The position numbers were made by a program, and so were the translations under genes. Positions 39,675 to 42,049 of a stretch of 64,000 nt of DNA are shown here, in pieces. Location: the NCBI RefSeq assembly GCF_000420765.1, contig NZ_ATVO01000003.1, forward strand, positions 372,001 through 436,000, read 5' to 3'. Below the pieces are notes generated by a model. It worked only from the letters and a program-made list of their open reading frames with translations. It made no database searches and was not told the origin of the DNA. Position 1 is the first letter of the stretch. Each line of letters opens with the position of its first letter. This stretch comes from Sandarakinorhabdus limnophila DSM 17366. Lineage in GTDB: Bacteria; Pseudomonadota; Alphaproteobacteria; Sphingomonadales; Sphingomonadaceae.

Positions 39675-39750
39675 TGGTAGGCCCGGAGGGACTCGAACCC
39701 CCAACCAAGCCGTTATGAGCGGCCTGCTCTAACCATTGAGCTACAGGCCC
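39675..39750 (-). tRNA. tRNA-Ile (anticodon CAT, lysidine type)
   Basis: A complete 76-base cloverleaf with encoded CCA. The acceptor stem 39750-39744 pairs with 39685-39679 (two G-U pairs); TAGCTCAATGGTTAGAGC forms the D arm, the anticodon loop is CTCATAA and GGTTCGAGTCC the T loop region. CAT with GAGCAGG before and TTGG after the anticodon stem matches tRNA-Ile2, whose C34 is converted to lysidine by TilS to read AUA, rather than tRNA-Met. Confidence 0.93.
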
Positions 39751-39794: not shown

Positions 39795-39845
39795 GGCCGG
39801 GCCGCACGCGCAAGGCGGCATCGGTGAAAACCGGGGCGCGCAGAG

Positions 39846-39885
39846 AAAGAAAAAGGGCCGGATGCTTTTGCAGCATCCGGCCCTT
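39846..39885 (-). terminator. Intrinsic terminator of the C-rich-loop RNA/lysR transcript
   Basis: AAGGGCCGGATGCT (minus strand 39885-39872) pairs perfectly with AGCATCCGGCCCTT (39866-39853) around a 5-base loop and runs into TTTTTCTTT. The plus strand lacks a T-tract. Confidence 0.9.
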
Positions 39886-40010
39886 CTATCATGCCCGGAA
39901 CCTCGCACCGGGAGGGGAGGAGTGGCGCGGCCGGGCTGATCGGTCGCCTCAGGGGGGAGGAGGGGCTGACCGATCAGGCCGGGCTGGCTGCAGGGGGGAG
40001 AGCAGCGGGC
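39846..40010 (-). ncRNA. Small RNA with three C-rich (anti-Shine-Dalgarno) hairpin loops
   Basis: Read on the minus strand: hairpin 1 GCTGC/GCAGC (40006-40002, 39991-39987) with loop TCTCCCCCCT; hairpin 2 a perfect 10-bp stem CTGATCGGTC/GACCGATCAG (39977-39968, 39945-39936) enclosing CCCCTCCTCCCCCC; hairpin 3 CGCGCC/GGTGCG (39929-39924, 39909-39904) with loop ACTCCTCCCCTCCC; then a terminator. Each loop can pair with GGAGG Shine-Dalgarno sequences. C-rich loops of this kind are known in alphaproteobacterial CcsR/cuckoo-type RNAs. No clear promoter was found in the 180 bases after lysR, so it may be processed from the lysR 3' end or have a weak promoter. Confidence 0.7.
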
Positions 40011-40189
40011 CCGGCGTTACCGCTATCGCGGCGACACAAACTATCTACGGATTCGCCGGCCTCTATTGCAGTGCACAATATCGCGTTACAGCCATGCACT
40101 GGATGCATAACTATGGACGCTGGAATATAGCAACTTCTTGTTATTGCAGTAAGACATGAGGTGCGCAGCCATGCATGCGACAGCCTGCC
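40011..40189. other. Gap between lysR stop and the small RNA
   Basis: AT-richer than its surroundings, with short palindromes built around TGCA (for example ATGCA-CTGGA-TGCAT near 40094-40108) and a minus-strand TATATT (40127-40122) without a good -35. It could hold the small-RNA promoter; no open frame of note. Confidence 0.4.
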
Positions 40190-41101
40190 TCACATGTCCA
40201 ACGCGGCGTTGGTCATGCGTTCCACCAGAAATTCGCGCAGCACGGCAATGCGCAGGGAGCGCCTGAGCTCGGAAGGATAGGTGAAGAAAGTGCGGAACAC
40301 CGGGCCTTCCACCTGCGGCAGCACCACCTGCACCTTGCCGGAAAAGCGGATCAGATAGGATGGCAGCGCCGCGATGCCAGCGCCGGCTTCCACCGCCTGC
40401 AACACGCCGTGGCTGTTGTTGATGGTCAGCGCTGCCGCCCGCGGGCTGCCTTCGTGGCCCAGCTCCAGGATCCAGTTGATGCCCTTCAGAAATTCCGGTG
40501 CGGCATCGCCATAGGATATCAACCGGTGGTGATCGAGATCGGCAATGGTCTTCGGCTCGCCGTGGCGGGCCAGATAATCCGGGCTGGCCACCAGGTGATG
40601 GCGGATACCGGCCAGCGGGCGCTGCATCAGCTCGTTCTGGAACGGGCGGTGAAACCGGATCGCGACATCAGCCTCACGCTTGGCCAGATCCAGATCGGCA
40701 TCGGTCAGCATCAAGTGGACACTGATATCGGGATAGAGATCAAGGAAATCGCCCAGTTGCCGCGCCAGCCAAGTGGAACCGAAGGAGACCGTGGTGGTCA
40801 GCCTGATGGCACCCGTCGGCCGATCACGGCTGACATCGATGGCCTGCGCCGCCTTGTCGATGCGCTCGTGCATGTCGGCGGTGGCGGCGCGCAACTGCTC
40901 GCCTTCGTGAGTCATCGCCAGCCCGCGGGCATGGCGGTGGAACAGTTTGGCGCCCAGGCTGTCTTCCAGCGCCGCGATCTGGCGCGACAATGCCGGCTGG
41001 CTCATGTGCAGGCGGCGTGCAGCCTCGGTGAAGCTGCCGGCTTCGGCCACGGTGTCGAACAGGCGCAGCTTTTCCCAATCAAGATTGATGCCAGGCTGCA
41101 T
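40190..41101 (-). CDS. LysR-family transcriptional regulator
   Basis: A protein of 303 residues. The winged HTH at the N-terminus reads LRLFDTVAEAGSFTEAARRL then HMSQPALSRQIAALEDSLGA; a linker helix leads to the periplasmic-binding-like effector domain (about 95-300), including DISVHLMLTDADLDLAKREA and DVAIRFHRPF. LysR proteins bind DNA as tetramers and sense small ligands; none is evident. It follows trxB after 15 bases on the same strand, so it probably shares the trxB transcript. OxyR-like function would be tempting beside trxB, but the redox-cysteine pair is not seen. Confidence 0.92.
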   Translation of the reverse strand: MQPGINLDWEKLRLFDTVAEAGSFTEAARRLHMSQPALSRQIAALEDSLGAKLFHRHARGLAMTHEGEQLRAATADMHERIDKAAQAIDVSRDRPTGAIRLTTTVSFGSTWLARQLGDFLDLYPDISVHLMLTDADLDLAKREADVAIRFHRPFQNELMQRPLAGIRHHLVASPDYLARHGEPKTIADLDHHRLISYGDAAPEFLKGINWILELGHEGSPRAAALTINNSHGVLQAVEAGAGIAALPSYLIRFSGKVQVVLPQVEGPVFRTFFTYPSELRRSLRIAVLREFLVERMTNAALDM

Positions 41102-41116
41102 GCGCCCCTCCTCCCC

Positions 41117-42049
41117 TTATCCGTGCGCCAGAAAACGCTCCGCTTCCAGCGCCGCCATGCAGCCCATGCCGGCCGCCGTCACAGCCTGTCGGTAGAGCTT
41201 GTCCTTCACGTCACCAGCGGCGAACACGCCGGCCACGCTGGTTGCCGTGCTGTCAGGCACGGTGAGGATATAGCCCTCCTCGTCCATGTTCAGCTGGGCA
41301 GCGAACAGGCTGGTGGCGGGCACGTGGCCGATGGCGATGAACAGGCCATCCACCGGCAGTTGGCGGGTGCTGCCATCGCGCGTGTCGGCCAGCGTGATAC
41401 CTTGCACCTTCAGCGGCGCGTCTTGCCCCTGCACATCGGTCACTTCGGCGTGCCAGTGCATCTGCACCTTGGGGTTTTCCAGCAGCCGGGCCTGGTTGGT
41501 CTTGTCCGCCCGCAGTTCGCCGCGACGGTGGATCAGGTGCACCTTGCTGGCGAACTTGGTGAGGAACATCGCCTCCTCCACAGCGGTGTTGCCGCCGCCA
41601 ACCACGGCCACTTCCTTGCCGCGGAAGAAGAAGCCGTCGCAGGTGGCACAGGCCGAAACGCCGAAACCGCGGAACTTCGTCTCATTGGGCAGGCCCAGCC
41701 AGCGCGCCTGGGCGCCGGTGGCGATCACGATTGTATCGGCGGTCCAACCCTGGCCGCTGTCGGTTTCCAGCACAAACGGGCGCCGCGACACATCAACCTT
41801 GGTCACGATATCAGTGATGATCTCGGTGCCGACATGGCGGGCCTGGGCTTCCATCTTCACCATCAGATCGGGGCCCATCACCATGGTTTCGCCCGGCCAA
41901 TTCTCCACTTCGGTGGTGATGGTCAGCTGGCCGCCGGGTTGCAGGCCCTGGATCAGCACCGGGTCCAGCAAGGCGCGCGCGGCATAGACGGCAGCGGTAT
42001 AGCCGGCCGGACCAGAGCCGATAATCAGAACCTTGGCATGACGGGACAT
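41117..42049 (-). CDS. trxB: Thioredoxin reductase
   Basis: A protein of 310 residues. FAD-binding GSGPAGYTAAVYAARA at the N-terminus, the redox-active Cys134-Ala-Thr-Cys137, NADPH-binding VVGGGNTAVEEAMFL followed by HRRGELRADK, and the C-terminal FAD motif VAGVFAAGDVKDKLYRQAV are all in place. It reduces thioredoxin with NADPH in the cytosol. It is divergent from the Lrp-type gene (178-base gap) and followed by lysR. Confidence 0.96.
   Translation of the reverse strand: MSRHAKVLIIGSGPAGYTAAVYAARALLDPVLIQGLQPGGQLTITTEVENWPGETMVMGPDLMVKMEAQARHVGTEIITDIVTKVDVSRRPFVLETDSGQGWTADTIVIATGAQARWLGLPNETKFRGFGVSACATCDGFFFRGKEVAVVGGGNTAVEEAMFLTKFASKVHLIHRRGELRADKTNQARLLENPKVQMHWHAEVTDVQGQDAPLKVQGITLADTRDGSTRQLPVDGLFIAIGHVPATSLFAAQLNMDEEGYILTVPDSTATSVAGVFAAGDVKDKLYRQAVTAAGMGCMAALEAERFLAHG

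Follow-up and report, generated by a model that had tools for sequence, protein, structure and literature searches.

AbcR1 and AbcR2 are RNAs of 121 and 114 nt with one anti-SD motif in a loop and one between stem-loops, and these motifs act at ribosome-binding sites. SorX and SorY come from Rhodobacter, and we take NfeR1/ar14 to be SmelA075/SmelA099. Passages of PMC10746234 describe NfeR1 as LsrB-activated, with three hairpins that carry anti-SD loops. Likewise, part of PMC3927594 gives ar14-type RNAs three or more anti-SD-loop hairpins with variable stems. The gene order in A. tumefaciens is trxB, vtlR, abcR1, abcR2 (PMC7486931, in part). At S. meliloti PabcR1, an LsrB/VtlR motif, GCAT-N3-TG-N3-T, is positioned at −61 to −49, above CTTGAC-N17-CTATAT, and removal of the motif lowers activity more than 22-fold (PMC8844928, in part). 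A supplement to that paper compares PabcR1 with homologs in several alphaproteobacteria. A passage of PMC11975290 states that LsrB is unique to Rhizobiales.

Here, we describe a locus in Sandarakinorhabdus that resembles these systems. The window, i.e. the whole stretch of DNA analysed, is 64,000 nt in length. The predicted RNA has the following parts.

39846..40036, minus strand: predicted sRNA of about 190 nt, its start placed 7 nt after a −10-like hexamer
40016..40035, minus strand: hairpin 0, a small leading GC stem of the 187-nt fold, with one G-C to A-U change
39978..40015, minus strand: hairpin 1 of the fold, loop UCUCCCCCCU
39937..39976, minus strand: hairpin 2 of the fold, with CCCCUCCUCCCC at 39965-39954
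39893..39936, minus strand: hairpin 3 of the fold, loop ACUCCUCCCCUCCC
39851..39887, minus strand: intrinsic terminator from a terminator scan, 16-pair stem and U-tract

The minus strand of 39840-40020 folds at −97.3 kcal/mol, compared with −64.9 +/- 4.0 for 200 dinucleotide shuffles. None of the 200 shuffles was as good (z −8.15). The loops of the 187-nt fold are UCUCCCCCCU, UCCUCCCCCCU and ACUCCUCCCCUCCC, and the C-rich stretches of the sRNA lie within hairpin loops. Only hairpin 2, among the three C-rich hairpins, has the exact sequence CCUCCUCCC. The terminator loop is 5 nt, and this is the single terminator-like site, on the minus strand, between 39600 and 40250, where shuffles average 0.4. 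Direct reading and the fold thus confirm the three C-rich hairpins and terminator proposed for this strand in a preliminary description, and computation supports its claim of several anti-SD loops. Some details have shifted. The description gave loop 2 as CCCCUCCUCCCCCC; the loop is indeed C-rich, but inner weak pairs had been counted as loop, leaving UCCUCCCCCCU. The perfect 10-bp stem assigned to hairpin 2 is present (CTGATCGGTC/GACCGATCAG), within a full stem of 13 pairs with a bulge. The terminator has its U-tract, and a stem of 16 pairs rather than 14 bp.

The surrounding genes are listed below.

41117..42049, minus strand: trxB, thioredoxin reductase, upstream of lsrB (TIGR01292, 395.7 bits)
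40190..41101, minus strand: lsrB/vtlR-type LysR regulator, 303 aa (PDB 9hh1, E 9.5e-80; trxB adjoins)
39675..39750, minus strand: CAU-anticodon tRNA, on the downstream side of the sRNA (Rfam; ARAGORN)

Compared with solved structures, the LysR protein matched 9hh1 best, and the next match had an E of 5.5e-28. No NCBIfam equivalog reached its cut-off among the 25 matches listed. ARAGORN names the neighbouring tRNA tRNA-Met(CAU); the tRNA-Ile of the preliminary description, of the lysidine CAU type, is plausible. This tRNA, the only match in the window at curated Rfam cut-offs, is also found behind lysR in most Sandarakinorhabdus and sister loci. The 9HH1 structure is A. tumefaciens LsrB (PMC11975290, in part). 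Judged by score against solved structures and by the adjacent trxB, the lysR gene is probably LsrB/VtlR-like. The sRNA sits beside lsrB and behind trxB-lsrB, as at the ar15/AbcR locus, and about 150 bp separate the lsrB stop from the inferred sRNA start. The placement had been called unfamiliar in the preliminary description; it is the position of AbcR1 beside trxB-vtlR/lsrB (PMC7486931, in part).

By the relatives of its LysR protein, the window belongs near Sandarakinorhabdus. A blastn search recovered the sRNA DNA from 12 of the 24 genus genomes, its own genome counted, and the same layout behind lysR recurs at L021-L030 and L053. Three C-rich hairpins with quite different stems are present at L031, L032, L033, L035 and L037, and L034 and L040 have two C-rich hairpins only. 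A further blastn match, at G000:C10:19753 (L016), was considered as a second copy and rejected as chance; it is confined to the segment linking loops 1 and 2 and, by eye, resembles coding sequence. Across 12 genus sequences, both partners change in 6 of the 41 modelled pairs, and 27 pairs are invariant. Hairpin 2 lies outside this pair model. MAFFT misaligned hairpin 2, and hence we compared hairpins by their folded arms. The folding set leaves out L021 and L022, which are near-identical to the window, and L034 and six distant relatives are absent from the arm comparison. In 15 sequences, no two share the 5' arm of hairpin 2, giving 15 different arms. Own arms of this hairpin have a mean pairing energy of −26.1 kcal/mol, compared with −10.3 for swapped arms; the equivalent values are −26.3 and −15.0 for hairpin 1, −31.9 and −18.8 for hairpin 3, and −29.0 and −21.9 for the terminator, all biased towards own arms since these were taken from each sequence's own fold. 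In the same 15 sequences, all 45 loops hold CUCC, CCUC or CCCC, and 27 hold CCUCC. The loops average 97% C/U, and each has at least 81%. Hence, stems vary and C-rich loops stay, which is the test that the preliminary description had set for itself.

Upstream of the sRNA, the following elements resemble an LsrB-dependent promoter.

40089..40111, minus strand: LsrB/VtlR-type box GTTATGC-N7-GCATGGCTG, 1 mismatch to the derived consensus GCYATGC-N7-GCATRNCTG
40064..40078, minus strand: second dyad TTGTGCACTGCAATA, spanning the −35 region and offset 33 nt downstream from the box start
40066..40071, minus strand: weak −35-like CTGCAA, in the columns that show TTG in a box-anchored alignment
40043..40048, minus strand: −10-like GTAGAT, 17 nt after the −35-like hexamer, in alignment columns 64-69

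The window box is the published GCAT-N3-TG-N3-T minus its last base (C for T). Transcription from an assumed start at window 40036, 7 nt beyond GTAGAT, would place the motif at −61 to −49, as at PabcR1; this agreement depends on the assumed 7-nt gap and on a motif without its last T. All 10 genus loci examined have the second dyad at this offset, differing from TTGTGCNNTGCANAA at 0-3 positions. Columns 41-43 of the box-anchored alignment show TTG, and columns 64-69 form a TA-rich block; [CGT]TANAT occurs in 32 of 76 rows, in 30 of these at 63-64. A sigma-70 scan around the sRNA found no promoter.

The box is common behind lsrB. Allowing up to 2 mismatches, it is present in 78 of 165 lsrB-downstream regions; shuffled sets average 0.15, and of 162 control stretches further downstream 2 have it. 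The consensus was derived by eye and then by counting, partly from lsrB-downstream regions that were later counted, and so this test is not independent. The published 13-mer occurs exactly in 24 of 168 regions, against 3.5 in shuffled sequences and 3 of 163 control stretches. The counts draw on 169 lsrB loci with tblastn scores of 150 bits or more; 250 nt of downstream sequence was available for 168 of them, and 400 nt for 165. L001-L020, L055-L062, L138-L140 and 13 later loci lie outside the set. Removal of near-identical rows took the 78 box loci to 76, among which different records may be one organism. The original count began at the lsrB stop and thus missed boxes that span it. Such boxes, with 0-1 mismatches, occur in 8 of 14 rechecked loci (L032-L035, L037, L063, L064, L068), and stop overlap explains 8 of the 87 of 165 regions that have no box at 2 mismatches. 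The same recheck found a box at 2 mismatches at L041. At L036, L038, L039, L067 and L069 there is neither a box (5-6 mismatches) nor, on inspection, such an RNA behind lsrB. In the 8 stop-spanning loci the box begins 12-20 nt ahead of where the stop codon ends, and the lsrB stop and predicted target site share bases.

Elsewhere in the genome of the window, the only other exact ATGC-N7-GCATRNCTG is at G000:C7:191254-191273 (L202). This site precedes a 49-aa ORF and, like the box of the sRNA promoter, has TGCACTGCACAA after it. The ORF had no Pfam match at E up to 1.

We found an LsrB-like match (E up to 1e-70) in 195 of 385 genomes of the class. The trxB gene is within 300 nt upstream of lsrB in 124 of 166 loci and, from score and this adjacency, the matches are probably orthologs. 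Such widespread LsrB-like proteins run counter to the statement, in the relevant passage of PMC11975290, that LsrB is confined to Rhizobiales. The box is present in 39 of 67 families with an lsrB locus examined, and box and downstream CCUCC together in 38 of 67, by a family list compiled by hand. In 76 of 78 box-positive regions CCUCC lies 85-260 nt after the box start, which describes position in the sequence and does not imply placement in a loop. Outside the family of the window, 125 loci have 133 copies of CCTCCC on the lsrB strand and 6 on the opposite strand; CCTCCC is absent from 47 of 87 box-negative regions. The box is present at only 3 of another 13 lsrB loci, which scored lower.

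Covariance models recovered little of this. Rfam scans of 50 lsrB loci (20, 17 and 13; at cut-offs, then at E up to 0.05) found no ar14 or ar15. Rhizobiaceae AbcR1, the positive control, was not recovered in the ar15 and lsrB-locus scans. Scans of genomes for ar15 gave 0 of 190 genomes, and weak matches under the cut-off in 3 of 40. The ar14 genome scan missed a locus that the local scan found, and hence the empty ar15 scans do not show absence. An element CCUCCC...ACU precedes the terminator in 46 of 78 box-positive RNAs, some of which match SorX, SorY or ar8. At L232, behind lsrB and after a box with 1 mismatch, SorY scored 62.1 bits (cut-off 111) and SorX 41.5 (cut-off 46.6). We recognised no earlier LsrB-linked sRNA outside Rhizobiales in the literature covered, which mostly excluded subscription papers, and earlier notice is possible.

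The loops of the sRNA are complementary to one site in particular.

41105..41116, minus strand: lsrB ribosome-binding site GGGGAGGAGGGG, perfectly complementary to CCCCUCCUCCCC of loop 2 over 12 nt

Among 51 window genes, picked by ORF length and GC3, lsrB pairs best with the loops (−34.2 kcal/mol, compared with −22.9 for the next). A P450 gene in the window with a GGGGAGGA start ranks 15 of 51. When the shorter folded loop is used, the near-identical L021 and L022 give −22.8 for lsrB pairing. At 11 of 11 genus loci the lsrB start region is a stronger pairing partner for the loops of its own locus than the trxB start region is, and at 10 of 11 a stronger one than the flippase gene start, the starts of L029 and L053 being uncertain. 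In five sister loci the lsrB start beats trxB in 4 and the flippase gene in 3. Any anti-SD loop matches strong ribosome-binding sites, and lsrB pairing is weaker outside the genus. Feedback of the sRNA on lsrB, predicted to be negative from this complementarity, is given, by itself, slightly less than even confidence. In the genome of the window GGGGAGGA occurs 18 times 4-13 nt before an ATG, the lsrB start being one of these sites; a reversed-pattern control gave 0. Pfam matches were obtained at 11 of the 14 other sites searched. They are two P450s, two AMP-binding enzymes, a TonB plug, an SMP-30-like protein, a short-chain dehydrogenase, a DHDPS family member, an ornithine carbamoyltransferase, DUF3833 and a PCMT-like protein. 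At L203, L204 and L220 no plausible gene was opened, as judged by eye.

We consider it likely that the RNA is a free-standing, trans-acting anti-SD sRNA with its own promoter, activated by LsrB, that blocks several mRNAs and lsrB. In this mechanism, LsrB would bind the box and activate the sRNA from its promoter beside lsrB. The three C-rich loops would pair with G-rich ribosome-binding sites. Translation would then be blocked for several mRNAs of uptake and catabolic genes, in the manner of AbcR and NfeR. Blocking of the lsrB mRNA itself would close a negative feedback loop. Hfq, which is encoded in the genome, may take part. The RNA would thereby gain a probable controller and a testable mechanism, of which feedback on lsrB is a direct prediction.

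An anti-SD sRNA could also exist without LsrB control, the box serving something else or another regulator acting at the second dyad. The fixed offset of that dyad over the −35 region in the genus, and the location of the box behind lsrB rather than before it, would suit this arrangement. However, the box, the −35/−10 spacing and the CCUCC stretches occur jointly in many families and are jointly missing from five relatives, and experiments in S. meliloti have shown that LsrB controls AbcR1 and NfeR1. We therefore regard independence from LsrB as unlikely. Alternatively, the loops might titrate a C-rich-binding protein or SD-like sRNAs and not repress mRNAs. Three similar tandem loops are what such a sponge might have, and in Caulobacter an sRNA sponge acts on anti-SD sRNAs (PMC12559287); there, though, the anti-SD RNAs are the prey of the sponge and not the sponge. 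The locus and promoter layout match AbcR1, a repressor, which also makes a sponge improbable. The preliminary description had offered both a multi-target base-pairing regulator and a sponge; the former is probable and the latter gained no evidence here.

Two further explanations concern the transcript itself. The structure is on the same strand as lsrB, after lsrB, and ends in a terminator, and so might merely be the 3' structure of lsrB mRNA, terminating and stabilising it with no separate RNA. Yet about 150 bp with a conserved promoter-like block intervene before the inferred start, and C-rich loops are kept while stems change; this explanation is more improbable still. A plus-strand transcript would present GGA loops to a CsrA-type protein, since the reverse complement of the loops holds GGA. 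The terminator-like site is nevertheless on the minus strand only, and at box-positive loci such sites occur on this strand in 69 of 78, with five shuffles giving 2-5 and the opposite strand 4, so that we give this possibility next to no weight.

Returning to an LsrB-activated repressor, we tentatively suggest, at a little less than even confidence, that trxB-lsrB with an LsrB-activated anti-SD sRNA is an old module of the whole class. The shape of the sRNA would be free (AbcR-, SorX- or NfeR-like), locus and promoter would be kept, and the sRNA would repress its own activator at least in Sandarakinorhabdus. If so, ar14, ar15 and SorX/SorY may be forms of one LsrB-tied lineage. The window locus itself suggests an LsrB-sRNA circuit of greater age and breadth than its descriptions so far, from root-nodule bacteria and relatives, would imply, and it extends the layout beyond Rhizobiales, against the statement in part of PMC11975290. 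Locus and promoter, more than RNA sequence, seem the way to find RNAs missed by covariance models.

The closest named family is ar14 (RF02344), the best sRNA match in a relaxed Rfam search (40.7 bits, cut-off 58.8, E 4.3e-6); a whole-genome ar14 search did not list the sRNA locus. For ar15 (RF02345) there was no match at the sRNA region at E up to 10. A link to CcsR/cuckoo RNAs, raised in the preliminary description, drew no support; Rfam matches listed for the region at E up to 10 include none of that name, whether or not Rfam has such a model. MmgR/ar8 (suhB, RF00519) shares an anti-SD motif and a terminator, but the window RNA scores 14.5 bits against a cut-off of 41. Elsewhere in the genome, at G000:C7:104083-104161 (L019), is an ar8/MmgR-like candidate of 30.6 bits (cut-off 41), with GATCCUCCCC before its terminator and, upstream, TTGTGCGGTGCAATA, which is like the second dyad of the window sRNA. 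In other families, the sequence behind lsrB can match SorX or SorY, with SorX above its cut-off in 1 of 20 loci (L109), whereas the pre-terminator CCUCCC...ACU was not found in box-positive Sandarakinorhabdus loci.

Like AbcR1 (ar15) of Sinorhizobium and Agrobacterium, the window RNA adjoins trxB-lsrB/vtlR and has anti-SD sequences; its candidate LsrB motif lacks the last T. Unlike AbcR, which has two RNAs in tandem, it is a single RNA at its locus with three C-rich loops. Its C-rich stretches are all in hairpin loops, whereas ar15 has its second anti-SD between stem-loops. With NfeR1/ar14 it shares three anti-SD-loop hairpins and variable stems. It differs in falling under the Rfam cut-off, in adjoining lsrB, and in having exactly CCUCCUCCC in one loop of three, that of hairpin 2, where ar14 has it in three hairpins. 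The RNA fails the Rfam tests of both ar14 and ar15, and hence we file it as neither. In shape it is NfeR1/ar14-like, and nearer to these than to AbcR; in locus and promoter it is AbcR1-like.
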